From Lutibacter sp. A80 (lineage in GTDB: Bacteria > Bacteroidota > Bacteroidia > Flavobacteriales > Flavobacteriaceae): a stretch of DNA of 64,000 bases. Of the stretch, positions 2,087 to 45,679 are shown piece by piece. The stretch is taken from NCBI RefSeq assembly GCF_022429645.1, contig NZ_CP092480.1:1267501-1331500 (forward strand). Reading direction: 5' to 3'. A program made the position numbers and the translations under genes. Each line of letters begins with the position of its first letter. Position 1 is the stretch's first letter. The notes under the pieces were generated by a model. That model ran no database searches. It worked only from the letters and a program-made list of their open reading frames with translations, and was not told the DNA's origin.

Positions 2087-2157
2087 TACAAAGTAATTAG
2101 AAATTCATCTTTTTATATTGATAAATTTTACCCTTTGTTAACCTAATTTTACCTTTT
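2087..2157 (-). promoter_or_regulatory. AraC-type operator plus -7 element upstream of the sugar porter
   Basis: On the plus strand, half-sites TTTTACC at 2126-2132 and 2147-2153 are spaced exactly 21 bp (A at 2130 and 2151). Exactly 41 bp from the first A lies CAAAGTAA (2089-2096), which reads TTACTTTG on the coding strand, one mismatch from the Bacteroidota -7 consensus TAnnTTTG. The same arrangement, with identical 21 and 41 bp spacings, occurs at 7421, 13884 and 45609. The operator sits just upstream of the -33 region, as expected for an activator. The binding protein is inferred to be the AraC regulator at 7507-8364. Confidence 0.65.
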
Positions 2158-2186
2158 AGAACAAGTGTAAAATTATAGCATAATAA

Positions 2187-2219
2187 AAAAGATACCGAAA
2201 AAAACTATCGGTATCTTTT
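2187..2219 (-). terminator. Rho-independent terminator after susD
   Basis: A perfect 12-bp inverted repeat (2187-2198 with 2208-2219, 9-nt loop) ends on the minus strand in a run of six T. It lies 43 bp beyond the stop codon of the SusD gene and closes the SusC-SusD unit before the sugar porter promoter. Confidence 0.85.
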
Positions 2220-2261
2220 AAGTATAAATACTAAGTATTTAATACAACCCAAACATATTAA

Positions 2262-3974
2262 TTAATATCCATAATTTTGTTCTAATGAAGCGTCTTTATC
2301 TATCTCTGTTTGTGGAATTGGCAAATAATATCTATAATCAAACCAAGGTCTATTTACAACTGTATACTCTTCATAATTCAATGTACCATCAATAGATTTT
2401 GTCCATTTTAATCCTCTAATATCATATCCTCCTATATGGTCTTGATTCATCCATCTTCTTTCATCAAAAAAGTTATGTCCTTCAAAGCAAAGCTCTACCC
2501 TTCTTTCTCTTTTAATAGCTTCTAATAGAGCTGCTCCGCTAACATCTATATTTGGTTGTAATGCCCTGTTTGATACTTTATTAACATAATCACGAGCAAT
2601 ATTTTCATCTATATAATACATAGCTTCAGCATAATTTAAATAAATTTCAGCCAATCTGTACATAATATAAGGACGATCTACAGAAAAGGTTGTTAAAGTA
2701 GATAAACTTTCATCTTGAAATTTCCTTATATTATAACCAGTTTTAGATGAATGTAATTGGTTTCCTAACCCTTTAGGAGAGTCTAATCCATCAGGAGTTT
2801 CATCGCTTGGGTTATCTGCCAAAGCATAATCTACATTACGGCCTCGAAAATCAGCCCCTTGAAATAAAAGGTTTGCATAATACCTCATCTCTCTTCCTTC
2901 ATTTATGTTTAATGCATCAAAAGTTTCATTATTAGTTCTACTTCCATCTTTCATATTAAATTCTAGAGTAAAATTGTGTGAAGGTGAACTTAATCCCCAA
3001 CCAGTATAACCATTAGGTGATTGTGCTTGATCTGGCAATGTATTAATATCGTTAGCCATTTCTGCATATAAACTTCCATACGAACGTCCAAATAAAATAT
3101 CTTGATTTTTGTGTAAAAATAAATTTTGGTATTCTGTAGCATTCGCAACAGGAATTAAATCACGATCTCCAACTAAATCTATTACTGCCTTTGCAGCATC
3201 TGCTGCATCTTGCCATTTTGTTGATTTTGTATAATCATAAATAGATCCATTTGGTACAGTACTCGGGTCATGTAACTCACTTGCAGCATACAGTAAAACT
3301 CTTGATTTAACCGCTAAAGCTGACAGTTTAGTTGCTCTACCAAACTCTGAAGCTTCCATTGGTAAAATAAGAGCAGCTTCATCCAAATCATTCACTATAA
3401 AATCTACACAATCTTCAAAACTATCTCTAGATAAATTAAATTCATCATCCAATCCAAACGATTTTTTAATAATTGGAACACCTCCATAATATTTAACTAA
3501 ATTAAAATAGGTAAAAGCTCTTAAAAATGTCATTTCCGCTTTTAATTGTGCTACTTCTTCTGGAGCTTCCTCCATTGCTTCACTACCTTCTATTTTTTCT
3601 AAAAATTCATTTATTAGTTTCACATAATCCCAAGAAGTTGCCCATCTATTATTAAATGCCAATCCTGCATTACTTGGTGACCACCCTCCTCTCATTTTAT
3701 AAGGAGTATCTAGATCTTTAAAGTTAAATTTAGCTTCCCAAGAAGCTCCTTCTATCCCTATTCTTTGTGTCCACCATTGGGAGCGATTTATAGCCCAACT
3801 ATCTGTAGTATTATAAGCTGTAACCACCACAAGTTTTGCTTGGTTAACATCACTATAAATTGCATCTTCTGTAAAAGAATCACTTGCTTCTGTATTTAAA
3901 ATATCATCACTACAACTCCCTATTGTAAAAATAGTTAACAGTGCAATCGCAAATTTTATTATTATATATTTCAT
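2262..3974 (-). CDS. SusD/RagB-family glycan-binding outer-membrane lipoprotein
   Basis: 570 residues with a lipoprotein signal ending in IGSC (Cys21) followed by SDD, the acidic surface-export type of Bacteroidota. The SusD fold is recognisable from an N-terminal TPR-like region (AEMTFLRAFTYFNLVKYYGGVP near 148-170) and a C-terminal block with IKRERRVELCFEGHNFFDERRW, ending in the common PIPQTEID and NYGY tail. It pairs with the SusC immediately upstream (60-bp gap) and would hold oligosaccharide over the TonB-dependent channel. Ligand type is not readable from the sequence; location in a sulfated-galactan locus suggests carrageenan or agar oligosaccharides. Confidence 0.92.
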   Translation of the reverse strand: MKYIIIKFAIALLTIFTIGSCSDDILNTEASDSFTEDAIYSDVNQAKLVVVTAYNTTDSWAINRSQWWTQRIGIEGASWEAKFNFKDLDTPYKMRGGWSPSNAGLAFNNRWATSWDYVKLINEFLEKIEGSEAMEEAPEEVAQLKAEMTFLRAFTYFNLVKYYGGVPIIKKSFGLDDEFNLSRDSFEDCVDFIVNDLDEAALILPMEASEFGRATKLSALAVKSRVLLYAASELHDPSTVPNGSIYDYTKSTKWQDAADAAKAVIDLVGDRDLIPVANATEYQNLFLHKNQDILFGRSYGSLYAEMANDINTLPDQAQSPNGYTGWGLSSPSHNFTLEFNMKDGSRTNNETFDALNINEGREMRYYANLLFQGADFRGRNVDYALADNPSDETPDGLDSPKGLGNQLHSSKTGYNIRKFQDESLSTLTTFSVDRPYIMYRLAEIYLNYAEAMYYIDENIARDYVNKVSNRALQPNIDVSGAALLEAIKRERRVELCFEGHNFFDERRWMNQDHIGGYDIRGLKWTKSIDGTLNYEEYTVVNRPWFDYRYYLPIPQTEIDKDASLEQNYGY

Positions 3975-4034
3975 CTCTTTATATCTTTATAATTTTCTTA
4001 TTAATTAACATTGTATAAATTTTCTATTTTTAAA

Positions 4035-7000
4035 TTAAAAATTAAAATTTAAACCAAACGTAAATGATTTTAAGGAAGGGTATCTACTCTGTCTAAAACT
4101 ATTATAACCTTCAGCTTCAGGATCTAAACCTAAATCATATATATCTGAAAACATAGTTAACACATTATAACCTCTAACATAAACTTTGACATCAGCAAAC
4201 CTTGTAATATCTTTAGGAATAGCATAACCTAGTTCAACCTCTTTTAACCTAAGGTATGAAGCATCACGCAACCATAAATCGGCACCTTGAAAATTTTCTG
4301 GTCCATTTAAACTACTACTATATGCATCTCCATTAGCAAATGCTCTTGGATATCTTGCATCAGTATTTTCAGGAGTCCAACGTTGATCATATAAGAAATC
4401 TGGCAAAGCTCCATTTCCTTCAAAAAATACTTGCATTTTAGCTTTAGCTTGCCCTTGAAATAAGAAACTAAAATTCCAATTTTTATAATTTAAACCACCA
4501 TGTATACCATATTGTACCTCAGGTACGTTTGACGAGTAAGAACGTATTCTATCTCCTGCGTCTATTCTACCATTTTCATTTGTATCAATATAATACGGTT
4601 CTCCTGGAACTGTACCTGCTAATTTTGCAGGTTCGGCATCTACTTGTGCTTGGTTTTGAAAAAGTCCATTTGTTGGATATATTAAATATGAATCCATTGG
4701 ATGTCCTTCTTGTTTCATTGCATCTATTACATTTTCAGCCTCATCCATATAAACTACTTCATTTTTGGCTTGGGTAAAATTAAAACCAATATTATAAGCT
4801 AAATCTTCAATAGTATCATTCCATCCCAATTCAAATTCCCAACCATAATTATCTACTTTACCTATATTTTCTTGAGGCAATGTTAACCCTGTATAATCTG
4901 GTATTGATGCATTTCTTGTTATTAAAATATCTTCTCTTTTTTGATAAAAATAATTGAAATCTCCTGTCAATCTACTATCTAATAATGTAAAGTTTAAACC
5001 AATATTTTTCATATCTGCAGCCTCCCAAGTAATATCTGGGTTTGCAGCTGCTACTCCAATACTAGAATATCCGTTATAATATTCTCCACCAAAATTATAA
5101 TAGTTAGGTAGTGCACCTACATTACCTGCATAATTATATTGGGTTAAGTACTGAAAACCAGATATACGGTCGTTACCCATTTTAGCCCAAGATGACCTTA
5201 GTTTTAATGAATTTACCCAAGAAACATCTTCCATAAAAGATTCTTTATCTATTGACCAAGACAATGCAATTCCTGGGAAAGTTCCAAATCTATTTCCTGG
5301 ACCAAAATTACTAGAGCCATCGTGACGTAATGTAATGTCTACGTAATATTTTTTCATATAATCGTAAGAAAATGAACCGAAATAATTAACACGAGCCCAT
5401 TCATAAGATGTTCCGTCAGAAGTTTGACCATCTGTATCTCCTGCAAATAACTCAGAGTGTTCAGAATCTGGAAAGCCTTTCTTTTCTACCCAAAAATTAC
5501 GTTGATCTGAAGTAGTTTGTTCATATCCAACAAACCCACTAAAACTATGTTTATCGTTTATTGTTTTAGAATAATAAACAGTTGCATTCAACATTAACTC
5601 GTTGTATTTCCAAAAACTTTCACGTAATATATTTTCATTTCCATCTTGTGAAAATCCAGGTTGTGCAACATATTCGTCAGAACCTTCAAGATAAGAATAA
5701 ACCGTCCAAGGACTGTACCAATATTTTTGATCATAATTCATTCTTCGCATACCTGCAAACCCTTTGAATTTTAAACCTTCAGCAAGTTTATTTAAATCAT
5801 AGTCAATTGATATTTTACCACGTAAATCAGTATCTACTTGCTTTTCAAAACCTGTTTCATCACTAGACATAATAACTGGGTTAGCTCCGTTTTCACCTCC
5901 CCAAGCAATTAAACCATTTGGATATACAGCAACTTCAGTAGGAAAATTATTATAAATATTTTTATAAATATAGCTTGTACCAATACCAGGCTCTACAGTT
6001 TCACCAAATCTTCCAGATAAGTCAACACCTAATTTAAGATCATCTATAATTTTAATATCTAAGTTAGATCTTATTTGATTTTGATCAAATTTTAAGTCGC
6101 CTGATTTATACATTCCTTTTTGACGAATCATATCTCCACTAACAAAATAATTTACATTTTCATTTCCTCCTGAAAGTGATAATGATGTTCTTGATTCAGG
6201 TGATGTTTTAGAAAAAGTTTCGTCTGCCCAATTTGTATTAGGATAATTAATAGGATCTATACCATTAGCATATTTAACAATATCTTCCTCGGTATATGTA
6301 GCATTTCTACCAAACCTTTCTTCTATTTCATTATTATAAATTGCAAATTGTTCAGAAGACATTAAACTTGGTTCAGCTGAAAATGAAGAAACTGTATAAG
6401 AAGTAGATAAATTTATTTTAGTTTTCCCATTTTTACCTCTTTTTGTTGTCACTAAAATAACACCATTTGCGGCTCTTGCTCCATAAATTGCGGCAGCTCC
6501 ATCTTTTAAAACTGTTAAACTTTCAATATCTTGAGGTGATAAATGTGAAAAAGAAGATGCTACAATTCCATCAATTAATATTAATGGAGCATTATTTCCC
6601 AAAGTAGATTTTCCTCTTATTAACAATGTTGTTTCACCCGAACCTGGTGTACCTCCTCTATCTGAAATAATTAAACCTGAAACTTTACCTGCCAATGATT
6701 TTACTAAATCTTTACTCCCAGACTTTTCAATATCGCCTGCTTTTACAGTACTTACTGAACCTGTAACATCACCTTTTTTTCTAGTTGAATATCCTAATAC
6801 CACTACTTCATCTAGGTTTTCAGTATTAGCTTCTAACATCACATTTATTGTTGTTTCTCCATCTACTACAACCTCTTTAGTTTTATAACCTATGTAAGAA
6901 AAAACAAGAACAGCATTACTTTCTACTGAAATTGAATAATTCCCATCAAAATCTGTTAAAGCTCCATTTGAAGTACCTTTAACTAATACATTTACACCTG

Positions 7001-7235
7001 GTAATGGCCCATCTTTATCAGAAACCACACCTGATATCTCAATTTGTTGATTTAAGATAATTGGTTCATTATTTTCAAAGCCACTATACGAAATCGATTT
7101 CGCAACAATACCTTGAAAAAAACTCATTGAAAATAAAAATGCTAAAGTAAGCACCTTGTTAAAATTCAATTTTAAAACTAAACTACCCGAGTTTTGGTAA
7201 TTTGTTTTTGATTTAAAATTTCTTAGTTTTTTCAT
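4035..7235 (-). CDS. SusC/RagA TonB-dependent oligosaccharide transporter
   Basis: About 1,066 residues from the ATG at 7235; an in-frame ATG at 7286 would add 17 residues, but the MKKLRNF start is the usual SusC form before a long signal peptide. After the signal comes a carboxypeptidase-D-like domain (ISGVVSDKDGPLPGVNV, TDFDGNYS), then the TonB box region (LDEVVVLGYST), the plug with LIRGKSTLGNNAPLILIDG and TVLKDGAAAIYGARAANGVI, and a 22-strand barrel ending in FGLNFNF. It imports oligosaccharides through the outer membrane with the SusD encoded next. A regulon promoter lies 190 bp upstream and the AraC gene beyond that. Confidence 0.93.
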   Translation of the reverse strand: MKKLRNFKSKTNYQNSGSLVLKLNFNKVLTLAFLFSMSFFQGIVAKSISYSGFENNEPIILNQQIEISGVVSDKDGPLPGVNVLVKGTSNGALTDFDGNYSISVESNAVLVFSYIGYKTKEVVVDGETTINVMLEANTENLDEVVVLGYSTRKKGDVTGSVSTVKAGDIEKSGSKDLVKSLAGKVSGLIISDRGGTPGSGETTLLIRGKSTLGNNAPLILIDGIVASSFSHLSPQDIESLTVLKDGAAAIYGARAANGVILVTTKRGKNGKTKINLSTSYTVSSFSAEPSLMSSEQFAIYNNEIEERFGRNATYTEEDIVKYANGIDPINYPNTNWADETFSKTSPESRTSLSLSGGNENVNYFVSGDMIRQKGMYKSGDLKFDQNQIRSNLDIKIIDDLKLGVDLSGRFGETVEPGIGTSYIYKNIYNNFPTEVAVYPNGLIAWGGENGANPVIMSSDETGFEKQVDTDLRGKISIDYDLNKLAEGLKFKGFAGMRRMNYDQKYWYSPWTVYSYLEGSDEYVAQPGFSQDGNENILRESFWKYNELMLNATVYYSKTINDKHSFSGFVGYEQTTSDQRNFWVEKKGFPDSEHSELFAGDTDGQTSDGTSYEWARVNYFGSFSYDYMKKYYVDITLRHDGSSNFGPGNRFGTFPGIALSWSIDKESFMEDVSWVNSLKLRSSWAKMGNDRISGFQYLTQYNYAGNVGALPNYYNFGGEYYNGYSSIGVAAANPDITWEAADMKNIGLNFTLLDSRLTGDFNYFYQKREDILITRNASIPDYTGLTLPQENIGKVDNYGWEFELGWNDTIEDLAYNIGFNFTQAKNEVVYMDEAENVIDAMKQEGHPMDSYLIYPTNGLFQNQAQVDAEPAKLAGTVPGEPYYIDTNENGRIDAGDRIRSYSSNVPEVQYGIHGGLNYKNWNFSFLFQGQAKAKMQVFFEGNGALPDFLYDQRWTPENTDARYPRAFANGDAYSSSLNGPENFQGADLWLRDASYLRLKEVELGYAIPKDITRFADVKVYVRGYNVLTMFSDIYDLGLDPEAEGYNSFRQSRYPSLKSFTFGLNFNF

Positions 7236-7420
7236 AAAATAAGTTAGTTTAATTTTACTATTATAAGTTTGATTTAATTTATACATAATAAATTATCAAT
7301 AACAAAATTCAACCTTACATGTTGATATATAGTATTTTAACTGCAATTTATTTTTAATAAATAAAAAGCAACAAAAGCATTAAAATCAAAATATAATAAA
7401 TGATTTCCTTTAGTTATTTA

Positions 7421-7490
7421 TACAAAGTAAGTGCAATATTTTTGTTAAGAAATGGTTAAATTTACCTTCTGACTACATTATTTTACCCCA
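7421..7490 (-). promoter_or_regulatory. AraC-type operator plus -7 element upstream of susC
   Basis: Half-sites TTTACC at 7461-7466 and 7482-7487 are 21 bp apart (A at 7464 and 7485). CAAAGTAA at 7423-7430 (coding strand TTACTTTG) lies exactly 41 bp from the first A. Spacing and sequence match the sites at 2087, 13884 and 45609. The leader would be about 130-180 nt long, depending on the susC start. The operator begins 17 bp downstream of the araC stop codon. Confidence 0.65.
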
Positions 7491-7506
7491 TTAAAAAATG
7501 GTAGAA

Positions 7507-8364
7507 TTAAATAGTTTTTCGATAATTATTAGGTGTACATCCCATAATTTGTTTAAACTGTTTATTAAAGTTTGTAATGGAGTTATATCCTACAATATAA
7601 CAAACTTCAGAAACAGGTAAATCACCTTGAATAAGCAATCTAGAAGCATTTCTTATTCTAACTTCATTTAAAAATTGAGTGAAGGATTTATTAGTCATTC
7701 TTTTAAAAAAACGACAAAAAGAATTTGTAGTCATACAAGCAACTTCAGCCACATCGTTTAAACTAATATAACTAACATAATTATCAGAAATAAATTTTAA
7801 GACATTGTCTATTCTTTGTGAATTTTCTGAAGTAAATTGTCTCATATCTGAAGACGAAAGTAGTTTTTTATCTTTAACTATTGAGAGTCTATGAAGAATT
7901 TCTAATAACTTTATACTTTGCTCCACTGGTTTAAGATTAGCAATATTCATGATGTCTTGATGCATCTTTTTACTAGTTTTTTCACCAAAAGCTACGCCAT
8001 ATTTAGAATCATCAAGCATTTTATTGATTTCCTTAAATTCTACACTTTCAAAAGTGTTTTCTCCAATAAAATCTTTACTAAACTTAGTGACTATGGTTTT
8101 TACAAAATACGCTTCATTATCTTTATAATATGAAATATCATTTCTCCATAAATGTGGTAAATAAGGACCTACTAAAACTAAATCACCAGGTAAAAAAGGG
8201 GAAACGCTATCTCCTACAAAACGAATTCCACTACTTTGTGAAATATACAACAATTCATATTCTAGATGGTAATGCCATGATGCATCTAAACAAGGAACTT
8301 CCCTATTTTCGATAAATAGTTTCTTATTTATAGGTTTTTCTGAATTTTTAACTACTAATTTCAT
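7507..8364 (-). CDS. AraC-family transcriptional regulator with cupin sensor domain
   Basis: 285 residues. Residues 1-150 form a cupin-like sugar-sensing domain (SWHYHLEYELLYI, then PGDLVLVGPYLPHLW). The last 100 residues carry the two AraC helix-turn-helix units: SLNDVAEVACMTTNSFCRFFKR and LPVSEVCYIVGYNSITNFNKQFK, then the conserved GCTPNNYRK ending. It is the only regulator in the window and the natural candidate for the 21-bp direct-repeat operators found upstream of susC, the sugar porter, the aldolase/kinase unit and the relic region. AraC proteins bind two half-sites about two helical turns apart, which fits. The inducer is probably a mono- or disaccharide from the galactan (inference). 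Confidence 0.92.
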   Translation of the reverse strand: MKLVVKNSEKPINKKLFIENREVPCLDASWHYHLEYELLYISQSSGIRFVGDSVSPFLPGDLVLVGPYLPHLWRNDISYYKDNEAYFVKTIVTKFSKDFIGENTFESVEFKEINKMLDDSKYGVAFGEKTSKKMHQDIMNIANLKPVEQSIKLLEILHRLSIVKDKKLLSSSDMRQFTSENSQRIDNVLKFISDNYVSYISLNDVAEVACMTTNSFCRFFKRMTNKSFTQFLNEVRIRNASRLLIQGDLPVSEVCYIVGYNSITNFNKQFKQIMGCTPNNYRKTI

Positions 8365-8370
8365 CTATTA

Positions 8371-8378
8371 CAAATATA
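8371..8378 (-). promoter_or_regulatory. Candidate -7 promoter element of the AraC gene
   Basis: The coding strand reads TATATTTG, a full match to the Bacteroidota -7 consensus TAnnTTTG, six bases before the ATG at 8364. If used, the transcript would have almost no leader. No clear TTG -33 box is present at the expected distance, and such AT-rich octamers arise by chance, so this is tentative. Confidence 0.35.
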
Positions 8379-8480
8379 ATAAATATATTTTTGATTTGTA
8401 ATAACTTATATTATATTGAAGCTCCGTGTTAAAAATAATTTTATAGTCCCTACTACAATGCTAGAATTAAACAATCTCTT

Positions 8481-9947: not shown

Positions 9948-9971
9948 AATTATAGGTTATCTTTTTGAAGA

Positions 9972-10010
9972 AGAAAGTCTTTAATTCTAAAATAGCATTA
10001 AAGACTTTCT
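9972..10010 (-). terminator. Intercistronic hairpin between small protein and sulfatase genes
   Basis: A perfect 13-bp inverted repeat (9972-9984 with 9998-10010, 13-nt loop) begins 8 bp after the stop of the small protein gene. No T-run follows on the minus strand (TCTTC instead), so it may be an mRNA-stabilising or partial attenuation structure rather than a full terminator. Confidence 0.5.
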
Positions 10011-10017
10011 ATGTGAC

Positions 10018-10371
10018 TTATATATTTTTTAACTCTTCGCGCATTTTAGCTAAAAAAGGTGCTATTTCTTTATAAGATTTTCCAACCAACTTAATAAACT
10101 TTGTATTAAAAGTTTTACTAATTTCTTGGCTTTTAACTTTTCTATTTTCTTTTGACAATCCTTCTTTTACAGCCTTATTAAGATCTAAATAACTTTGAAC
10201 CATTTCAGTTCTAAATTCTACTAATTCTTTTACTTGATCTTTATTTAAATCATACTCTTTTGTTGCTGCTTCAACAAAATGGTTTATTTTTTTTTGTTGT
10301 GTTTTTATTTTTTGACCAAATGTAGTACTAACTGTTACTAATAAAATTATTAATAATATTACTTTTTTCAT
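10018..10371 (-). CDS. Small secreted helical protein of unknown function
   Basis: 117 residues from the ATG at 10371, chosen because it starts a clean signal peptide (MKKVILLIILLVTVSTTFGQ). The longer frame would start inside the preceding GH16 gene. The mature part is highly charged and predicted all-helical, with a NKDQVKELVEFRTEMVQSY stretch reminiscent of periplasmic Spy/LTXXQ or zinc-resistance-type helical proteins, but no diagnostic motif is present. It lies 28 bp after the GH16 gene and before a sulfatase, so it is probably co-expressed with them. It could be a periplasmic chaperone or sensor for secreted enzymes; this is a guess from size and composition only. Confidence 0.65.
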   Translation of the reverse strand: MKKVILLIILLVTVSTTFGQKIKTQQKKINHFVEAATKEYDLNKDQVKELVEFRTEMVQSYLDLNKAVKEGLSKENRKVKSQEISKTFNTKFIKLVGKSYKEIAPFLAKMREELKNI

Positions 10372-10399
10372 CTCACTTAATTTTAAATTATTATTATGT

Positions 10400-11413
10400 T
10401 TATAAATTACTTTTGTTTTTTTGCCATACCCTAACATATTCAATCTCAAAATCTACAACACCATCGTCTTTTTCTCCCTCAGGGCTATTTAATTCTAAAT
10501 CTTCTTTAGAATCTGGAACACCATGCCATGGAAATGTTTCCTGATCTAACCAAATATGAATTGGCCCGTCTAAAACCCAACCATTAGGCAATCCTTTATC
10601 TTTAGCATAAGCATCTACTTGTTCTTTTGTAGCTCCAGTTTTGTACTTACCATCAACATATAATTTTAATCCATTCTCATCCCACTCAATTCCATATACG
10701 TGAAAATCATCTGCTACTCTAAATCCATAATCTAAACGTTCTGTATAAACTGTTTTACCTTTCCCTTCTCTACTCCAATCATGAATTGACCACCAAAGCT
10801 CACGATCTTTCCATTCTTTTCCTTTTTGACGGTGATCTCCAAACTGTTCAAAAATATCTAGTTCGGTTTGGCTACCTGTTGCCCAAAAAGCACTAGTAAT
10901 TTCTGCATCTGCAGCTTTACTTTTAATCTCCATATAACCGTATTTAAAATTTCTTCTCCCAATAAAACAAGCTGTGGTTATATTTTCATATTTTTCAATT
11001 TTATTATCAGATCCCCAGGTTTGCTTATTATCATCACTAAAAGGAAAATCGGGTTCCCAACGTGTTTCTAAAATTAACTTTCCATCTTCTAATCTATAAT
11101 TTTTACCTGAAAATTGAGAAGGAGCGCGACCTTTCCAAACTTTTTTATTAGGATAATCTGGATCTTTATATACAGGTTTCCCATTTTCAAACTTTCCTAC
11201 TATATACCATTTATCTTCGTCTATAACAGCAGCATCAAATTCATCACTAACATCTGTGTTTAAAACCCAATTTCCTTTATTGGATTGATCTGATAAAGGT
11301 AATAGCTCAATATTTTTGTCGTCTTTTGCTGTATTAATAGTACTTTTACAACTTAAAAAAAACACTAAGAGTAAGATTCCAATTACAACAAAACTAAATT
11401 CTTTTTTTTTCAT
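10400..11413 (-). CDS. GH16 endo-beta-galactanase-like lipoprotein
   Basis: 337 residues, full length for a single-domain GH16. A lipoprotein signal ends in LSC (Cys22). The catalytic motif is ELDIFE at 184-189: Glu184 nucleophile, Asp186, Glu189 acid/base. WKGRAPSQF (93-101) and the C-terminal VDFEIEYVRVW are typical of red-algal galactanases of the family (agarases, porphyranases, kappa-carrageenases). Classical kappa-carrageenases usually read EIDVVE, so ELDIFE argues somewhat against that subgroup. It cleaves internal beta-1,4 bonds, probably at the cell surface. It is first in a unit with the small helical protein and a sulfatase, and is a paralogue of the truncated GH16 at 1-396. Confidence 0.87.
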   Translation of the reverse strand: MKKKEFSFVVIGILLLVFFLSCKSTINTAKDDKNIELLPLSDQSNKGNWVLNTDVSDEFDAAVIDEDKWYIVGKFENGKPVYKDPDYPNKKVWKGRAPSQFSGKNYRLEDGKLILETRWEPDFPFSDDNKQTWGSDNKIEKYENITTACFIGRRNFKYGYMEIKSKAADAEITSAFWATGSQTELDIFEQFGDHRQKGKEWKDRELWWSIHDWSREGKGKTVYTERLDYGFRVADDFHVYGIEWDENGLKLYVDGKYKTGATKEQVDAYAKDKGLPNGWVLDGPIHIWLDQETFPWHGVPDSKEDLELNSPEGEKDDGVVDFEIEYVRVWQKNKSNL

Positions 11414-11556
11414 TATTCTTTTTTTAATACTTCTTACTTTTACTTTACCTCTAAAAAGTTTCTATATCTATTAATAATACATCTATTGTTTATCAACTAA
11501 AAGTATATTATAAATAATACCTTCAACATAATTTATTTATTCTGGTAGTTATACTA

Positions 11557-11588
11557 TTACTGGTTATCCTATTTAGAATAACCAGTAA
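11557..11588 (-). terminator. Hairpin downstream of the sugar kinase gene
   Basis: An 11-bp perfect inverted repeat (11557-11567 with 11578-11588, 10-nt loop) lies 52 bp beyond the kinase stop. No T-tract follows on the minus strand, so it is a weak or factor-assisted terminator at best. The rest of the 226-bp gap shows no gene. Confidence 0.45.
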
Positions 11589-11639
11589 ATACTTATAAAC
11601 TTCACTATCAAACAATATTACAACCTAATATTCTTATAA

Positions 11640-12728
11640 CTATCTAACAACTCTACCAGATCCAGAACCTTGCATTAAAGATTCTACCTCTGAACGTGTA
11701 GAATAATTAAAATCGCCTTTAATTGAATGTTTTAAACAAGAAGCTGCTACCGCATATTTTACAGCAATTTGAGGCTCAGAGAGTCCTTTAGTTGTTAACG
11801 CAAAAACCAAACCACCAGCAAATGAATCTCCACCTCCAACGCGGTCAACAATATTTTTAATTTCATACGATTGATACTTATTATTTAAATCTAAAGGTGC
11901 AAAAAAAGGTTTATCTGTAGCCGTATCATATAGCATAGCTCCCCAATTATTATGTGAAGCTGAATAACTTTCACGTAAAGTAATTGCAACTTTTTTTACA
12001 TTTGGAAATTGTTCAACAACTTGACGTGCTACATCTGGATAACGAGAGGTATCTAATTTTCCAGTATGTACATCTGTATTCCCAGCTCTAATTCCTAAAA
12101 CATCATAGCAATCTTCCTCATTCCCAATAACAACATCAATATATGGTAAAATTTTGCGCATTGTTTCTTGAGCTAATTCACGAGCAGATTTAGAGCTGTC
12201 CCAATCCCATAATTTTCCTCTAAAATTTAAATCTATTGAAACAGAAGCTCCTGTTTCTTTTGCTTTTTTTGCAGCATATAAAGTAGCTTCTGCAGCATTT
12301 TTAGACAATGCTGGTGTAATTCCACTTAAATGCAACCAACTTGCTCCTTTAAAAATATTTTCCCAATCATATGCTTCAACTGGTGTAATTGCTATTGCAG
12401 AATCTGCACGGTCATAAATTACATTACTTGGTCTTTGATTAGCTCCTGTTTCTAGAAAATATAATCCTAAACGACCTTTATCTGTTCGTAATACATATTG
12501 TGTATCTACACCCACAGAACGAACAGCATCGATAGTTGCTTCAGCTAAGGCATGTTTTGGCAAAGCTGTAACATAACGTGCATTTCCTCCAAAATTACAA
12601 ATTGATGCAGCTACACTTGCTTCTGCACCTGCATAAGTCATATCAAACTGACGTGTTTGTCTTAATCGTAAATTATCAGGAGCAGCTATGCGCCCCATTA
12701 TTTCTCCAAATGTTACAATTGTATTCAT
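11640..12728 (-). CDS. kdgK: PfkB-family 2-keto-3-deoxy-gluconate/galactonate kinase
   Basis: 362 residues with ribokinase/PfkB features: N-terminal TFGEIMGRI, the AGAEASVAASICNFGG substrate block and the C-terminal RVGGGDSFAGG anion-hole motif with catalytic Asp301. The long form with FGEIMGR and SIDLNFRGKLW is that of KDG kinases. It would phosphorylate 2-keto-3-deoxy-galactonate or -gluconate, giving the substrate of the aldolase encoded 76 bp upstream. In carrageenan users this reaction serves D-galactose by the De Ley-Doudoroff route or 3,6-anhydro-D-galactose; which of the two applies here cannot be decided. A broken second copy of its 3' end lies at 45276-45515. Confidence 0.88.
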   Translation of the reverse strand: MNTIVTFGEIMGRIAAPDNLRLRQTRQFDMTYAGAEASVAASICNFGGNARYVTALPKHALAEATIDAVRSVGVDTQYVLRTDKGRLGLYFLETGANQRPSNVIYDRADSAIAITPVEAYDWENIFKGASWLHLSGITPALSKNAAEATLYAAKKAKETGASVSIDLNFRGKLWDWDSSKSARELAQETMRKILPYIDVVIGNEEDCYDVLGIRAGNTDVHTGKLDTSRYPDVARQVVEQFPNVKKVAITLRESYSASHNNWGAMLYDTATDKPFFAPLDLNNKYQSYEIKNIVDRVGGGDSFAGGLVFALTTKGLSEPQIAVKYAVAASCLKHSIKGDFNYSTRSEVESLMQGSGSGRVVR

Positions 12729-12804
12729 ATTGTTAATTCTTTTTTTATTGATCCGTAATAAGTGCTTTTTTGTTAGGTTTAAAAACTAAAATTCAAAGTG
12801 CTTA

Positions 12805-13488
12805 TTAACGTTGTTTTTGTGATTTAATACTTTTAATTAAAGTTCTTATTTGTTTGGCATTTTTTGTTATTTCTGCCCAATTCTCAGATTGAATTAACGA
12901 ACGTTTTGCCACCCAAGACCCTCCTATTGCCGTAATTAAAGGTGATTCTAAATAACTGCTTGCATTATCTAAGTTACATCCTCCTAATGGTATAAAAGTT
13001 GGATTCAAATATTGATAAGGAGCTACCATATTTTTTAAGTGTTCCATACCTCCTGAAGATTCTGCAGGAAAATATTTTAAAACTCTACACCCTTCCTCTA
13101 ATGCCATCTCAATATCTGTTGGAGTCATAATTCCTGGTGCAAAAGACAATCCTTGTTTTCTAGCTTCTGCTATAATTTTAGGGTTACAACCTGGAGAAAC
13201 AGCGAAATCTGCTCCTGCATCTACAACAGCACTCACTTGATCTTTTGTTAAAACAGTTCCAAAACCTAGACAAATTTCTGGTACTTCTTTTTTTATTAAT
13301 CGTGCAGCATCTAATGCTACAGGCGTACGAAGTGTTAATTCTATTGTATCAACTCCTCCTGCTAAAAGTGCTCTAGAAACTGGCACTACATGTTTTAAAT
13401 CATCAATGATAAGAACCGCTATAATACCAGCTTCATCAATTTTTTTAATAATTTCAGGTGACATAGCCTGTTGATTTATTGGATACAT
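12805..13488 (-). CDS. eda: KDPG/KDPGal aldolase
   Basis: 227 residues, typical for this class I aldolase. Visible active-site features are GGVDTIELTLRT with Glu50 and VLKYFPAESSGG with the Schiff-base Lys138, plus the GTVLT and PLGG phosphate-binding blocks. It splits 2-keto-3-deoxy-6-phosphogluconate or -galactonate into pyruvate and glyceraldehyde 3-phosphate. It lies between the VOC-like gene (25-bp gap) and the kinase, in an operon with a regulon promoter. The gluco/galacto preference is not readable. Confidence 0.9.
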   Translation of the reverse strand: MYPINQQAMSPEIIKKIDEAGIIAVLIIDDLKHVVPVSRALLAGGVDTIELTLRTPVALDAARLIKKEVPEICLGFGTVLTKDQVSAVVDAGADFAVSPGCNPKIIAEARKQGLSFAPGIMTPTDIEMALEEGCRVLKYFPAESSGGMEHLKNMVAPYQYLNPTFIPLGGCNLDNASSYLESPLITAIGGSWVAKRSLIQSENWAEITKNAKQIRTLIKSIKSQKQR

Positions 13489-13513
13489 AATTATCTATTT
13501 TTCCTAATTTAAA

Positions 13514-13834
13514 TTATTCTTTTATTTCCAAAAATTCTATAGGAGATCCATTATTATTAATATAGACAACCCGAACTCCTTCGGCAGGTGAAAAAATTTC
13601 CCCTAAAACTTTTCTACCCAAAATTGCATTTTCAATATTACCTACTAGATAAGAAACATGCGGCATTGTTTTTACCATTTCAGACACCAAGCTATCTTTA
13701 TCAAACTTTACAAATTCAACATTAAACTCATCTTTATTAAAGTCTGTATAATGAAATTTTCCAGGTTCACAAAAACCATCCCATTCCATATCTTCTGTAG
13801 TTGGTATTCCTATATGACTAAATTTATATTCCAT
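13514..13834 (-). CDS. VOC/glyoxalase-fold small protein
   Basis: 106 residues, no signal peptide, so cytoplasmic. The opening HIGIPT and the ending SPIEFLEI, with a central FSPAEGVRVVYI strand, match the vicinal-oxygen-chelate fold. Possible metal ligands are His7, His59 and the C-terminal Glu, although the single repeat would have to dimerise to complete a site. It is the first gene of the VOC-aldolase-kinase operon, just behind a regulon promoter, so its role is probably in the same sugar-acid route, for example as an isomerase, epimerase or lactone-handling step. No specific reaction can be assigned. Confidence 0.7.
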   Translation of the reverse strand: MEYKFSHIGIPTTEDMEWDGFCEPGKFHYTDFNKDEFNVEFVKFDKDSLVSEMVKTMPHVSYLVGNIENAILGRKVLGEIFSPAEGVRVVYINNNGSPIEFLEIKE

Positions 13835-13883
13835 TTTATGAGTTTAAATAGTTAAATATTAAAGTTTTGAATTTATTTATACA

Positions 13884-13953
13884 TACAAAATACGCTTAAA
13901 TTCATGGTTTCGTATTGTTTAAATTTACCCTTTATTCACCTTATTTTATCCTT
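13884..13953 (-). promoter_or_regulatory. AraC-type operator plus -7 element upstream of the VOC-eda-kdgK operon
   Basis: Half-sites TTTACCC at 13924-13930 and TTTATCC at 13945-13951 are 21 bp apart (A at 13927 and 13948). CAAAATAC at 13886-13893 (coding strand GTATTTTG) is exactly 41 bp from the first A. The predicted start near 13880 gives a leader of about 46 nt. The second half-site has one change (TATCC for TACC). The rest of the 435-bp gap up to 14270 holds the terminator at 14143 and nothing else I recognise. Confidence 0.6.
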
Positions 13954-14142
13954 ACAAAGACATAGCTTATTACACTATTAAAAATGAAACACGAGAGCTA
14001 TAGAAGTATAAAAATGAAGAATAATTACTTTAAAATTAGTTTGCTTAAAACTTATTTTAGTTAGAAAAACCTAGTAATTAGAAAGTGAGTTTAAAACAAA
14101 ATTAGAAGCCTTAACAAACTAAAAATCAATTTATAAACACAA

Positions 14143-14168
14143 AAAGAGCTGAAATAAATCAGCTCTTT
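14143..14168 (-). terminator. Rho-independent terminator after sulfatase operon
   Basis: A perfect 10-bp stem (14143-14152 with 14159-14168, 6-nt loop) runs into TTTTT on the minus strand, 102 bp after the sulfatase stop at 14270. It closes the GH110-SusCD-SGBP-sulfatase transcription unit. Confidence 0.8.
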
Positions 14169-24094: not shown

Positions 24095-25993
24095 TTATCT
24101 AAATTTTAAACTCTGTAATTTTTCATCAGCTTTTAATATAACATTTGCTTTTCCTTTATATTTATTCTTTTGAAATTTTATATTTTTTGAATGTTCTATT
24201 TTAATTGCTGGATTTTCTGGGTATAACATTGGAAAATTACCTGAGTTTATAATTGAATTACCTTTAAATAATAAACCATCGGTATTTATAATTTGTAAAA
24301 TTAAATTGTCGAAATGATTGAATTTATTATTAGTAATTTCAATATTTTTAAATGCTATATTTTGATTATCATCATCGGTATCAAAACGAATAACTCCTCT
24401 ATTAAAACCACTATGTTGGCAATCTTGAAAAGTATTATTTTCAATCACTAAATCTTTGACGCTTCCAGACTCGTACCAGCTACTACTTTCAACAGGAATT
24501 AAAATAGCTTCCATTTCAGTACTAAAATAGCTATCCTTAATCACAGTTTTTTTAGGTGTAGAAATTAGCAACCCCCTAGCTCTGTTATTACTTATATTAC
24601 AATTCTCTACAGTAAATTCTGGATATGCATCTAAATTTTCTACTAAATCTCCTGTTTTTAAATATGTAGGAAGTTTCTCATCAAATGTAATTATTTGATA
24701 CCTTCCATTTAAATATTGTATATTTTTAATTGTTGCTTTACTATAAGGATCGAAAGAATCACTTAAACGTACAAAACCTAAATTATCATTCACCTGCCCT
24801 ATTACAAACCCTTGTTGTTGATGGTGCCCCATTCTTACTCCAATTCTATATTCATCTATAATATCTACAATTATTTGATAGGTACCATGTACATTTGAAG
24901 CATCATCTAATTGATTTTGAAAAGTACAGTTTTTTAATACTACTTTCCCTCTACAACCTACAAAGTGAGTAGCATCGGCTGTTGTTGAAACCATACGTCC
25001 TTTTGAAGGGGTTACATTGAAATTATCTAATATTAAATCTGAAGAATTTTCAGCAATAATCCCCATACCTCCAGCATGGTGTACATTTACATTCTGTGCA
25101 TTAAATCCTTTAGTTTGTGTAACTCTAAAAGCTGGAGAAACGCGATTATAACCTTGACTTCCTTTCATTGTTAAAATCATTCCAACTGGAGGTAGTTCTT
25201 TTTTATGCCCGTAAACTCGAACTAACCCAGGTTTTAACTGTTCTACTTTAGCTCTATTCTCCCAGCCAATATTTCTTATAATTAAATCTTTAGTATCGAC
25301 CTCATATTTGTACTTAATTTTATCAATATTATTAGTAATTGAAGTCTTTGATTTTGTTGAAATATTGGTATATTTTTCTGTCTCAAAAGCAATAGCTTTT
25401 CTATCTGGATCATATAAAATAGATTGCCCTAAACTATGTTCGTAGTATTCTTTTATAAAAAATATTTCACCATTTCTTATATCATAAGGATACTCATCTG
25501 ATATTTGCATATCAAAAGTTTTATTTTCTTTATCATTTGCAACAATAAGTCCCTCGCTATGAAATGCCTCATTCCAATCTATTGAAACATTTTTTACAGT
25601 AATATTTGAACTATTGTCAATTAAAAAAGGAATTATTACACCATGAAATATAAAGGTCGAACCATTACCATTTATTGTTAAATTTTTAAAATCAAAAATT
25701 GGAAATGGTGTTTTTACCATTAAATCTCCATGATTAGAAATATAACAGAATTTTTCATAACCTTTATCAGGATAAAAATGATAAGTTCCTTTTTCAAAAG
25801 TTATTTCAGAAATTGGCCTTTCTTTAGCTTCCAATATTCTGGCAACCACTGCTGGAGTTGCATCGTCGGAAATTGCTACACTAAAATATACTGGTGTTGC
25901 TTTTACTATTTGTGTATTACTTGCAAGTAAAAAACCCGTTACTAATAGTATAGTAATCATTAAAAGTTTAGATGTTAATTTATACCTTATCAT
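24095..25993 (-). CDS. GH110 alpha-1,3-galactosidase
   Basis: 632 residues with a hydrophobic N-terminal signal. The protein is a right-handed parallel beta-helix with GH110 landmarks: ADATHFVGCRGK (Asp340), QLDDASNVHGTY (Asp363, Asp364), the HHQQQGF segment and many short strand repeats such as FTVENCNISNNRARG. The acidic residues at 340 and 363/364 recur at 300 and 323/324 in the second copy at 57938-59755 and are likely catalytic. GH110 enzymes release alpha-1,3-linked galactose; a marine member has been linked to lambda-carrageenan disaccharide backbone. It is the first gene of the second SusCD operon. Confidence 0.85.
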   Translation of the reverse strand: MIRYKLTSKLLMITILLVTGFLLASNTQIVKATPVYFSVAISDDATPAVVARILEAKERPISEITFEKGTYHFYPDKGYEKFCYISNHGDLMVKTPFPIFDFKNLTINGNGSTFIFHGVIIPFLIDNSSNITVKNVSIDWNEAFHSEGLIVANDKENKTFDMQISDEYPYDIRNGEIFFIKEYYEHSLGQSILYDPDRKAIAFETEKYTNISTKSKTSITNNIDKIKYKYEVDTKDLIIRNIGWENRAKVEQLKPGLVRVYGHKKELPPVGMILTMKGSQGYNRVSPAFRVTQTKGFNAQNVNVHHAGGMGIIAENSSDLILDNFNVTPSKGRMVSTTADATHFVGCRGKVVLKNCTFQNQLDDASNVHGTYQIIVDIIDEYRIGVRMGHHQQQGFVIGQVNDNLGFVRLSDSFDPYSKATIKNIQYLNGRYQIITFDEKLPTYLKTGDLVENLDAYPEFTVENCNISNNRARGLLISTPKKTVIKDSYFSTEMEAILIPVESSSWYESGSVKDLVIENNTFQDCQHSGFNRGVIRFDTDDDNQNIAFKNIEITNNKFNHFDNLILQIINTDGLLFKGNSIINSGNFPMLYPENPAIKIEHSKNIKFQKNKYKGKANVILKADEKLQSLKFR

Positions 25994-26134: not shown

Positions 26135-26201
26135 TATTATTATTTTAAATTTTAAACAAAAAAAGTAACAAAAAACCTAAAACAAGTTCTTAATTACCTT
26201 T
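26135..26201 (-). promoter_or_regulatory. Degenerate fifth regulon-type operator upstream of GH110
   Basis: ACC-containing half-sites with A at 26175 and 26196 are 21 bp apart (second half ATTACCTTT, close to the other sites; first half AAAACCTAA, poor). CAAAGAAA at 26135 is 40 rather than 41 bp from the first A. It is the only element in this 234-bp gap that resembles the four clear operators. Tentative. Confidence 0.25.
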
Positions 26202-26227
26202 TTATATAAGTATTTTATCTTAGAAAA

Positions 26228-31004: not shown

Positions 31005-31011
31005 CTATATA

Positions 31012-32526: not shown

Positions 32527-32539
32527 TTAAATCTGTTTT

Positions 32540-33964: not shown

Positions 33965-33981
33965 TTTATATTTGTTTTTGT

Positions 33982-35361
33982 TTAGTACACTGGAACAGCT
34001 TCTTTTTCCCAATTAGCAATAGCAATTTTTAATGTTTCTTCAATTTCTAAACCTTTTCCTATTAAATCATTCTTTTCACTTATATCTTTAGTAACATTAA
34101 ATAATTGAAATTTCCCACTATGATATTTAATCAGTTTCCAATCTCCATCAATTACAGCTGCATACTGATCTTCATAACTTCTAAAGAAAAATAACTTACG
34201 ACTTTCAAATTTTTGTTCTTTAATAATTGGCATTAAACTTTTCCCTTGAATACCTTCTCCATCAAACTTTTCACCTGAAGCTATCTCCATTATAGTTGGA
34301 TATAAATCAATAGATTGTACAGGTATTTCAGTTACACTTTTAGCTTTTGTAACTCCGGGATAAAATACTATAAAAGGAACACGTGCCCCACCTTCACCTA
34401 AAGTATTACCACCTTTTTTACCTCCACTTAGAGGAGCATTAGAATACGCTCCACCTTGGTCTGAAATTAAAATAATTACAGTATTATCAGCAATTCCCTT
34501 TTCTTCTAAAGCTTTTCTAACCTCTCCTACTGATTTGTCTAACGTTTCAACCATTGCTCCATGATGTGCATACTTTCCTTCCATTCCCTTATCTTGGTAT
34601 TTTTTTAATAATTGTTTTTTACCAATTGAAGGACCGTGAACGGTATAATACCAAAAAGACAACATAAAAGGGTCTTGTTTATCGTAATTCTTAATAAAAT
34701 CTGTAGCCTTATTAGTAAGCACTTCGGTTAAATAATCTCCTTCTTTCAATCCCGATTTTAAGAATCCTTTTGGATCATCTTCTGGCTTAAAAAATGGATA
34801 ATAATAATTTTTAGGATGCCCTGCATTAGTGGTTCCGTAAACTTCATCAAAACCTTGCTTATCTGGAAAATGAGCTTGATGACCTAAATGCCATTTTCCA
34901 ATAAACGCGTTGTAATATCCATATTCTTTTAAACGTTCTGCATAGGTTACCTCTTCTAAAGGCAGATAATTTATTGAAGGCATTTGAACGGGGTCTTTTG
35001 GCCACAAATTATACTTTTCTACTTCTGGATTACCCGAAATATGACGAGGCATCTCCATTCTAACAGACTCTTTACCTGTTAATATTGCTGCTCTACTAGG
35101 GCTACAAGTTGGTGTAGGAATGTAAGCTCTATTAAAATCTAATCCATCTCTTTTTAATTGATCAATATTTGGTGTTTCAAAAAGCGGATTCCTATAACCA
35201 ACATCTGCCCAACCCCAATCATCTACAAATAACAAAACAATATTTGGTTTTCTATTTTTTTTATCAGTTGAAACTTGTTGTTCACCTTGGTCTTTACAAG
35301 TTATAAATAGCATTGCAACAAAAGCTACAAATACGTTTAAGATTGTTTTTTTTGAAATCAT
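33982..35361 (-). CDS. S1-family sulfatase, lipoprotein
   Basis: 459 residues, lipoprotein signal FITC (Cys22) then KDQGE. FVDDWGWADVG gives metal ligands; CSPSRAAILTG carries Cys86, the formylglycine precursor; GKWHLG and SDQGG follow. It is first in the operon of three sulfatases and two GH2 enzymes. Its 450-bp upstream gap contains no regulon-type operator, only AT-rich sequence with no recognisable gene; the promoter was not identified. Confidence 0.92.
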   Translation of the reverse strand: MISKKTILNVFVAFVAMLFITCKDQGEQQVSTDKKNRKPNIVLLFVDDWGWADVGYRNPLFETPNIDQLKRDGLDFNRAYIPTPTCSPSRAAILTGKESVRMEMPRHISGNPEVEKYNLWPKDPVQMPSINYLPLEEVTYAERLKEYGYYNAFIGKWHLGHQAHFPDKQGFDEVYGTTNAGHPKNYYYPFFKPEDDPKGFLKSGLKEGDYLTEVLTNKATDFIKNYDKQDPFMLSFWYYTVHGPSIGKKQLLKKYQDKGMEGKYAHHGAMVETLDKSVGEVRKALEEKGIADNTVIILISDQGGAYSNAPLSGGKKGGNTLGEGGARVPFIVFYPGVTKAKSVTEIPVQSIDLYPTIMEIASGEKFDGEGIQGKSLMPIIKEQKFESRKLFFFRSYEDQYAAVIDGDWKLIKYHSGKFQLFNVTKDISEKNDLIGKGLEIEETLKIAIANWEKEAVPVY

Positions 35362-35811
35362 AAGTTATCTATCTGTATTATTTTCTTAAATCTGTTATAC
35401 ATTTTCAACAACGTAAAAGTGCCTCTATATCTTAATTAATATGTTTCTATTAGTTTAGAAAATGTATTTAACTGTAAATTTATTAGTAAATACCTTTAAA
35501 TTATAGTAAAAAACTACCTGATGATATTTAAAATTTATCTTTAAGAAATATGATATAAATTACATATATAATAAAAAGACTCTTTATATTTTAGAATATT
35601 AGTATACAAATTATGATAGGCACAAGATAATGGAGGAGTTACTTTTTAAGTTTTCTTAACTCTAATATAAATAATAGCATTTTGAAATTAAACCAACTTT
35701 AGATTATTCGAAACAAAAACCCTTTTATTTCAACAACTTAACATAACAAAACTAAAATAATTACTTATAATTTCTTATTTAGAACCTCTTCAATAACTTT
35801 TATTAATATGA

Positions 35812-38177: not shown

Positions 38178-38183
38178 TAGTTA

Positions 38184-39584: not shown

Positions 39585-39735
39585 TATTACCTTTTTACAA
39601 TTATAATACCAAATAACACTATATCTTTTAAATAAAATGTAGTTCATAGTTTCAAATATGTCACTATAAATAAAAATCTACTGATATCTTAAATTTATCT
39701 ATTAAAATATAAACTGTGTTATATTGATACTAAAA

Positions 39736-43002
<3,267 letters not shown>

Positions 43003-43106
43003 TCATCAAATTAATATCTTTTTTATTTCCTAAACAATAGTGTTGAGTTTATGTCTAGTTAAAATAAATTATATATGGTTCTAAACTTATTTTAATTCAA
43101 ACTTTA

Positions 43107-45197: not shown

Positions 45198-45275
45198 AAT
45201 TAAAATTTTAATAATTTTTCATATTTAAATTAAGAAGTGATAAATTAAAAAAATTTAGCACTTGTCACTGTTTTG

Positions 45276-45515
45276 TTATCTTACAAATTTACCGGAACCA
45301 ATAGCTCTCATAAAAGCTTCAACTTCGACACAAGCTGATTAATTAAAACCCACCTTTAATAGAATATCTTAAATAAAATACCTCAACTTCATATTTTACA
45401 ACTGTTTCAAAATCGCTTAATTCAGGTGTCTTTACATCAAAAAAATCTCCACCTCCAGCACAATCTACAATGTTTTTTATTTTGTTCGAACATTGACACA
45501 TTTTATCAATCATTT
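45276..45515 (-). pseudogene. kdgK: Degraded 3' fragment of a KDG kinase gene
   Basis: Translated on the minus strand, this stretch gives NKIKNIVDCAGGGDFF, then VVKYEV and YSIKGGF followed by a stop. After a frameshift it continues CVEVEAFMRAIGSGKFVR and a stop at 45276. Each block aligns in order with the intact kinase at 11640-12728 (EIKNIVDRVGGGDSF, AVKYAV, HSIKGDF, SEVESLMQGSGSGRVVR). About a dozen residues after GGGD are missing, and the 5' two-thirds of the gene is absent. The remaining reading frame cannot encode a kinase. It lies in the 581-bp gap between the DUF5696 and GH150 genes, directly after an orphan signal peptide. Confidence 0.8.
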
Positions 45516-45584
45516 TTGTAGTGCAACAGATAAAAAGAACATAAAAATAAGTAGCACACTAAAAGCTAATTTTAATATTTTCAT
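45510..45584 (-). pseudogene. Orphan signal peptide (remnant of a secreted-protein gene)
   Basis: An ATG at 45584 opens a 24-codon frame, MKILKLAFSVLLIFMFFLSV then ALQK and a stop. This is a textbook Sec signal peptide with no mature domain. The kinase fragment begins immediately after. It starts about 22 nt behind a well-formed regulon promoter, so a secreted enzyme gene here was probably deleted, fusing its 5' end to a broken kdgK. Confidence 0.6.
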
Positions 45585-45608
45585 TGTATTATGTGATATT
45601 CTGCTCTT

Positions 45609-45679
45609 TACAAAATAAGCATTTTGTTCTATTTTGAAATTAGTTAAATTTACCTTTATTTCAGTATATATTACCTTTA
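45609..45679 (-). promoter_or_regulatory. AraC-type operator plus -7 element upstream of the relic region
   Basis: Half-sites TTTACC at 45649-45654 and ATTACC at 45670-45675 are 21 bp apart (A at 45652 and 45673). CAAAATAA at 45611-45618 (coding strand TTATTTTG) is exactly 41 bp from the first A. All spacings match the sites at 2087, 7421 and 13884. The element is intact although the gene behind it is broken; transcripts could run on into the DUF5696 gene at 45197. Confidence 0.6.

Follow-up and report, generated by a model that had tools for sequence, protein, structure and literature searches.

How might the genes of a carrageenan locus, spread over tens of kilobases in separate units, be switched on together? 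We address this question for a stretch of 64,000 nucleotides from the chromosome of Lutibacter sp. A80 (family Flavobacteriaceae; contig NZ_CP092480.1, positions 1,267,501 to 1,331,500 of the forward strand), referred to below as 'the window'. It contains four copies of a rigid signal, here termed the 'composite': two head-to-tail half-sites followed, at a fixed distance, by a promoter box. Judged from sequence, the composite is very likely the operator, and also the activator-dependent promoter, of a regulon governed by an AraC-family regulator of the CgrA type, whose gene lies at 7507-8364. Put simply, this rigid signal, which stands before many carrageenan genes, is probably the place where an AraC-type regulator switches them on. 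In Zobellia galactanivorans, normal growth on carrageenan needs the AraC regulator CgrA (ZGAL_3159), and deletion of cgrA leads to a lag and to reduced growth on this substrate (PMC5698469).

Geometry and specificity of the composites

The original prediction listed four composites, with half-sites 21 bp apart and 41 bp between the promoter box and the nearer half-site. When the sequence was re-read, all four were present as given. Each reads, on the minus strand, GGTAAA-N15-GGTAAA and then a box ending in TTTG; the distal half-site is GATAAA in site 3 and GGTAAT in site 4. The C of CAAA lies at 2089, 7423, 13886 and 45611, and is 41 bp from the A of the proximal half-site in four of four. With the G of TTTG set to 0, the half-sites start at -64 (distal) and -43 (proximal), also in all four. 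The spacers are unlike, and likeness is limited to the half-sites and the -7 box. The composites are as follows (mismatches refer to the pattern, and bits to the matrix, described below; predicted starts are set some 5 nt past the C of CAAA):

2087..2153, minus strand: composite 1; distal half-site 2146-2153, proximal 2125-2132, -7 box TTACTTTG at 2089-2096; 5' of the MFS sugar porter gene at 399-2054; predicted start about 2084; 0 mismatches, 46.4 bits
7421..7487, minus strand: composite 2; distal 7480-7487, proximal 7459-7466, -7 box 7423-7430; between the AraC gene and susC; predicted start about 7418; 0 mismatches, 45.3 bits
13884..13950, minus strand: composite 3; distal 13943-13950 (GATAAAAT), proximal 13922-13929, -7 box 13886-13893; 5' of a 106-amino-acid gene, an aldolase and a kinase; predicted start about 13881; 1 mismatch, 41.8 bits
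45609..45675, minus strand: composite 4; distal 45668-45675 (GGTAATAT), proximal 45647-45654, -7 box 45611-45618; followed by a decayed region and, 414 bp downstream, by a GH129-like gene; predicted start about 45606; 1 mismatch, 35.0 bits

Identical spacing had been thought unlikely to arise by chance, and a genome-wide scan agrees. The pattern GGTAAANT-N13-GGTAAANT-N29-TAYTTTGTA, allowed at most 3 mismatches, occurs six times in the genome of 3,930,133 bp, always within C1:1,244,077-1,313,175 (69 kb around the carrageenan locus), and the reversed pattern, which served as control, does not occur. Many random genomic matches with the same spacing would have spoken for chance; the scan does not find them. 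Two of the six are new: C1:1264147 (minus strand), 5' of a GH127 gene, and C1:1244077 (plus strand), 5' of a second susC. Without its promoter part the half-site pair is non-specific (with at most 1 mismatch, 63 + 77 matches on the two strands, versus 89 + 77 for the reversed control), so the promoter part and an intergenic position are essential. Pattern matches within open reading frames (ORFs), such as C1:1256560 in L037:2887-4473, were taken as chance occurrences.

We also scanned with a matrix trained on 56 sites from 14 other genomes, the window genome (G000) being the only one held out. It finds eight sites of at least 28.6 bits in 119 kb around the locus. The four expected copies exist, then, but strong sites number eight in all, and the other four lie beyond the window. 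Control scores are lower: shuffling the 119-kb region 20 times gave 15.7 bits at most, three 20-kb stretches from other parts of the genome gave 11.3 at most, and the highest score in all seven such stretches (four of them from relatives) was 17.9. Two new sites were found by the matrix only: C1:1251601, 5' of a sulfatase gene, and C1:1238402, at the start of a unit encoding a cycloisomerase, an aldehyde dehydrogenase and a RhaT-like transporter. The latter ends in TTTA-like letters, not TTTG, and overlaps the mechanically assigned TTG start of its ORF; the real start should therefore be downstream.

The composite travels with the regulator. Among 397 genomes of the family, with the best candidates (at most six) scored in each, an AraC protein at least 60% identical to the window's over its length occurs in 15, among the matches listed; no other listed match exceeds 41%, save one second copy (57%) in a carrier genome. 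In that genome, G237, two CgrA-like genes about 10 kb apart (C7:362887 and 372640), which share 69% and 57% identity with the window's, are surrounded by several composites. At up to 3 mismatches, the composite is found in 15 of 15 genomes with the orthologue and in 64 of the 382 others; at up to 2, in 13 of 15 versus 13 of 382 (p ~1e-15). Seven of these last 13 carry the second, Zobellia-type regulator discussed below, and in four more the matches resemble a single conserved sequence that is probably coding.

Regions of 35 to 80 kb around the AraC gene were fetched from the 14 relatives and, with the window's own, contain sites in 15 of 15 genomes. For half-site pairs of the form G[GA]TAA[AT][ATC]T, a spacing of 21 bp is seen 50 times, and no other spacing between 8 and 60 bp more than once; AraC-type operators are marked by direct half-sites at about this distance. 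Control stretches contain no such pair (seven of 20 kb, with 10,190 intergenic bases). When pairs are sought at 21 bp with up to 2 mismatches, and no -7 box is required, 85 intergenic pairs are found in the 15 genomes. TTTG follows at +61 in 47 of these, and at any other offset three times at most. Every genome has at least one pair with TTTG at +61, and if the four window composites are set aside the count is 43 of 81 (3 of 50 for pairs inside ORFs). A matrix scan of the 15 regions at a threshold of 17 bits, near the best control score of 17.9, gave 106 matches, the weakest of which may be due to chance. Four are within ORFs, and 94 of the remaining 102 exceed 20 bits. All matches except eight in G000 come from the training genomes, where scores are not independent. 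Sequence, fixed geometry, confinement to one part of the genome, conservation and downstream genes are all direct observations.

A logo of the 85 sites has the form GGTAAAAT, N4, T, ..., GGTAAwTT..A..AAT, about 20 unconserved bases and T(T/A)AnTTTG; at the second base of the -7 box, 46 sites have T and 36 have A. Placed in the sigma-A register, the half-sites begin near -69 and -48, close to araI1 and araI2 of Escherichia coli. The -7 box is near TAnnTTTG, the Bacteroidota sigma-A consensus at -12 to -5 (PMC9723704), and no conserved -33 element appears in the logo, as in activator-dependent sigma-A promoters of this phylum. The absence of a -33 element would fit dependence of the weak -7 box on an activator. 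A near-match to the inverted half-site (ATTTTACC, up to 1 mismatch) overlaps the -7 box in 10 of the 102 sites (e.g. G323:C2:8155, G383:C1:2518023 and G237:C7:350237).

The presumed regulator is encoded beside composite 2:

7507..8364, minus strand: AraC-family regulator (CgrA-like), 285 amino acids; predicted N-terminal beta-barrel and helices, C-terminal double helix-turn-helix (HTH)

The double HTH of the AraC/XylS family is clear (Pfam HTH_18, 2.4e-22, and HTH_AraC, 8.7e-16, both over cut-off), and a PDB sequence search matches AraC-type domains. Residues 1-200 have no Pfam match. The structural model has a predicted beta-barrel with helices that matches the N-terminal domain of AraC (2arc chains, target template-modelling scores 0.58 and 0.53; mean predicted local distance difference test score 67.9), and its structural matches include other AraC-family structures. 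Across the 15 orthologues there is almost no variation in the first HTH recognition region. The proposal that this gene regulates the composites gains support from their co-occurrence, from the sites around the gene in 15 of 15 genomes and from the 21-bp period, and further from the geometry of the second group and from agreement with published expression.

A second regulator group and the genes induced by D-AnG

The second group of regulators occurs in Zobellia, Cellulophaga, Maribacter, Arenibacter, Aquimarina and other genera, at loci with the same pathway genes as the window. Its members are 37-39% identical to the window's protein (nine compared). In a tree the two types form clades with support of 100/100 and 100/99, joined at 87/76; they are likely, but not firmly, sisters. 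Over the 397 genomes the window type occurs in 15, the Zobellia type in 10, and both together in none. Chance alone would place both in only 0.4 genomes, and the absence of co-carriers by itself proves little.

The composite geometry is the same. We fetched eleven regions, ten with a regulator of this type plus G050, which has no pair. In these regions exact GNTAAANT pairs number 17 at 21 bp, against no more than one at other spacings, and 24 of 27 pairs have TTTG at +61. Across 40 named loci, some from the same genomes as the eleven regions, and including four distant outgroups without pairs, TTTG is at +61 in 36 of 47. The outgroup AraC loci, from Niabella and Carboxylicivirga (37-38% identical to the Zobellia type), have 0 pairs in 4 loci. 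Six Zobellia genomes have 5 or 6 genome-wide composite matches each (control, 0); the sixth match in G399, G001 and G388 is a stray at 3 mismatches.

Published expression can be set against these sites. Of the 29 genes in Table 1 of PMC5698469, 13 are significantly induced by 3,6-anhydro-D-galactose (D-AnG). The gene order of Zobellia genome G236 (genus inferred; one genus with G001 and G388) equals that of ZGAL_3159 to ZGAL_3145 in this table, and its composites precede the counterparts of ZGAL_3158, 3157, 3150 and 3147. Two more stand far from the cluster. One is before a sulfatase gene, taken as ZGAL_181, whose product shares 61% identity with the cluster sulfatase at the position of ZGAL_3146 (ZGAL_181 and ZGAL_3146 are a pair of 65% identity; PMC5698469). 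The other is before a susC-susD pair, taken as cgtA-cgtB. By gene order, with presumed operon ends, the composite-led units of G236 hold the counterparts of all 13 D-AnG-induced genes and of four whose induction was not significant. G236 was scanned with a second matrix that had been trained on the sites at 404189 and 413553, but not on those at 402766 and 419431 or at the two distant loci. The site before the ZGAL_3158 counterpart was found by matrix alone (27.4 bits), the pattern having missed it. A kappa-carrageenase-like locus of G001 (below the family cut-off), of a gene class that is not D-AnG-induced, has no site (best score 3.0).

Proposed mechanism, alternatives and candidate target genes

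The mechanism that we infer from these observations covers binding, activation, ligand and start sites. The CgrA-like protein would bind, as a dimer, to both GGTAAAwT half-sites, which point the same way and are separated by two helical turns; downstream of them is a sigma-A -7 box with no conserved -33 element. With half-sites near -69 and -48 from the start, an AraC-type activator could make contact with RNA polymerase. The inducer would be a metabolite formed as carrageenan is degraded, most likely D-AnG or its first products, and the regulator, once switched on, would turn on together the genes for uptake (susCD, MFS), de-sulfation, GH127 and D-AnG catabolism.

Several observations weigh against this account. 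TTTG is missing at +61 in 38 of the 85 intergenic pairs (TTTA in 14, TTAG in 8). Such variants are common 5' of the cycloisomerase operon, where 11 of 12 sites (12 genomes; e.g. G000 C1:1238402, which is L038:5902) carry TTTA, TTAG or TTAT at the TTTG offset; TTTA and TTAG are also seen ahead of certain susC and sulfatase genes. The matrix scan gave no strong site directly 5' of the window sulfatases (14-17 kb and 31-40 kb), the third susC or the lambda-carrageenases. Among the 36 named loci that are not outgroups, 28 have at least one pair with TTTG at +61 and 8 have none within 10-kb flanks. The two regulator types are only 37-39% identical and their joining support (87/76) is weak. ZGAL_3151-3154, the end of the 3157 unit, are downstream of a composite yet not significantly D-AnG-induced, and so an operon end or polarity must be supposed. 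The Z. galactanivorans assignments were made from congeners through gene order, family and identity, not from the Z. galactanivorans sequence itself, and the non-induced control is one kappa-carrageenase-like locus in another genome.

Three other explanations deserve comment. It is unlikely, in our estimation, that the AraC protein is a repressor, or a dual regulator that holds the promoter off without ligand and releases or activates it with ligand. Classical AraC is dual, and the inverted near-matches over the -7 box in 10 of 102 sites could be read in this way. A third upstream half-site is not enriched, however: at -21 one is present in 2 of 102 sites (up to 1 mismatch) or 6 (up to 2), and at other offsets in 0-2 and 0-7. 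The direct repeat, moreover, is upstream of the -7 box rather than over it. Regulation in the cgrA mutant on plates is termed complex in PMC5698469, but the lag and reduced growth of this mutant point to positive control.

Quite unlikely, too, is that the composite is a real operator bound by some other regulator of the locus, such as a two-component or TPR-type protein, with the AraC gene a mere neighbour. The 21-bp direct repeat is an AraC-type architecture (PMC3878776), and of the 26 genomes with a composite at up to 2 mismatches, 20 carry a regulator of one or other AraC group, although a TPR protein is indeed encoded at L037:6246-7862 and binding by the AraC protein is a prediction from sequence. 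In the Zobellia-type group the second letter of the half-site is less strict, a point that also counts against another regulator, although the scan patterns differed and part of the difference is built in. Finally, there is a negligible chance that the four places stem from a repeat that has been duplicated or is mobile, with equal spacing due to recent copying rather than function: four similar arrangements do occur in a single locus rich in sulfatase genes, but only the half-sites and -7 box are alike while spacers differ, relatives contradict copying by keeping the geometry in 14 other genomes with different spacers, and composites sit before gene starts on both strands.

If the composite is, as we favor, the operator and promoter of a CgrA-type AraC regulon, the following features of the window are its candidate targets, the last two rows being weak further candidates for the composite itself:

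399..2054, minus strand: MFS sugar porter; target of composite 1
2262..3974, minus strand: SusD-like lipoprotein; downstream of susC
4035..7286, minus strand: SusC-like receptor; target of composite 2, presumed cgtA counterpart
11640..13834, minus strand: 106-amino-acid gene, KDPG/KHG-type aldolase and 2-keto-3-deoxy-sugar-acid kinase; presumed unit of composite 3
45346..45510, minus strand: relic kinase fragment, 46% identical over 54 amino acids to the kinase at 11640-12728; downstream of composite 4
26153..26219, minus strand: weak candidate composite 5' of 24095-25993; 15.7 bits, a score that the best shuffle also reaches
35473..35539, minus strand: weak candidate composite upstream of 33982-35361; 14.5 bits

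The window SusC is 63% identical to the SusC whose gene follows a composite far from the cluster in G236. The 106-amino-acid protein (13514-13834) had been labelled 'VOC', a label that finds no support in Pfam or NCBIfam, neither of which gives a match; its gene is the first after a composite in 5 of the 15 genomes. The first downstream genes of the 102 non-ORF sites, classed by best match to the proteins of the window region, are sulfatases (22 sites in 11 genomes), cycloisomerase (12 in 12), SusC1 (10 in 10), GH16 (9 in 8), GH127 (8 in 6), SusC2 (6 in 6) and the 106-amino-acid gene (5 in 5), with others besides and 20 without a match. A frameshift in the GH16 gene at 10.0-11.4 kb was considered and ruled out; the frame 10018-10449 is a separate small ORF with a signal-peptide-like start.

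The region behind composite 4 had been called a relic. It is decayed, as supposed (45346-45584), but what it contains is a fragment of a sugar-acid kinase gene. Twenty-seven bases after the composite is the ATG of a 24-codon frame, signal-peptide-like, followed by a stop. The promoter has apparently survived the loss of its gene, and the GH129-like gene 414 bp further on may now be under its control. Two lambda-carrageenase-like genes with CGLA domains (45779-48430 and 61924-63918) share the locus with kappa-family pathway genes.

A wider rule can be offered as a possibility, though a doubtful one. Between two AraC lineages 37-39% identical the half-site letters drift, yet the pairing of half-sites, their 21-bp phase and their distance from a degenerate TTnnTTTG box are preserved. 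In such a 'ruler' promoter the activator would stand in both for the -33 contact that is missing and for the A of the -7 box; other Bacteroidota promoters under AraC-type or hybrid two-component control might follow the same rule. Upstream of 55 non-carrageenan SusC genes (G000 and G236), a 21-bp repeat is in register at 6 of 148 TTTG anchors, versus a mean of 0.2 for other spacings. A second set, 59 upstreams from eight other genomes and biased to the best-scoring SusC proteins, gave 0 of 137, which counts against the wider rule. A general rule for non-carrageenan SusC promoters, positive in the discovery set, thus failed replication and is not claimed. Other 21-bp repeats do occur in the same register to TTTG, for example CCATTTGTTGT twice in L300, and others in L268, L273, L318 and elsewhere.

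Comparison with known systems

The composite gives a carrageenan regulator a concrete candidate operator that can be tested on 70-bp fragments. From sequence alone, it predicts the genes under control across 22 genera of a single family (the window type of regulator in 14, the Zobellia type in 8), ties unlinked genes to the carrageenan locus (the distal susCD and sulfatase of Zobellia), and offers an inducible promoter architecture for marine Bacteroidota.

At araBAD, E. coli AraC has a 21-bp direct repeat, a similar distance of the proximal half-site from the start and a similar domain plan, and AraC itself (2arc) is among the structural matches of the window regulator. The half-site letters differ, and the window promoter is of the Bacteroidota sigma-A kind; there is no sign in the window of a distant looping site, for which no search was made. 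In Bacteroides, hybrid two-component regulators with an AraC-type HTH are likewise predicted to have two direct half-sites 21 bp apart before the operons of polysaccharide utilization loci (PULs). These repeats average 21 bp and are interpreted as monomers that sit on the same face of the DNA with two turns between them (PMC3878776). The hybrid proteins are membrane sensor-kinase fusions, whereas the window regulator is a one-component protein of 285 amino acids, and the available portion of that paper mentions no fixed distance to a -7 box. XylRA, from beta-1,3-xylan loci of marine Vibrio, also combines an AraC-type DNA-binding domain with AT-rich direct repeats, bound in gel shifts, before several operons of an algal-polysaccharide locus; its LacI-type sensor domain, phylum and motif are different (PMC12125979).

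Closest is the CgrA regulon of Z. galactanivorans (ZGAL_3159). There, as in the window, an AraC regulator adjoins a carrageenan PUL with the same pathway genes (PMC5698469), and the composite geometry of the Zobellia-type group is the window's own. The window regulator is 39% identical to that of Zobellia, and susCD is within the locus in the window and far away in Zobellia. The accessible part of PMC5698469 does not describe the operator, and searches of the open-access literature, supplements aside, for an operator of CgrA or of carrageenan genes, and for AraC motifs in flavobacterial promoters or PULs, returned no account of this motif among the matches listed. The 21-bp architecture, then, is already known from the AraC-type systems of Bacteroides, while the motif, its coupling to the promoter and the regulon were not found in the literature searched. 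What we describe is a new operator and regulon of a known kind.

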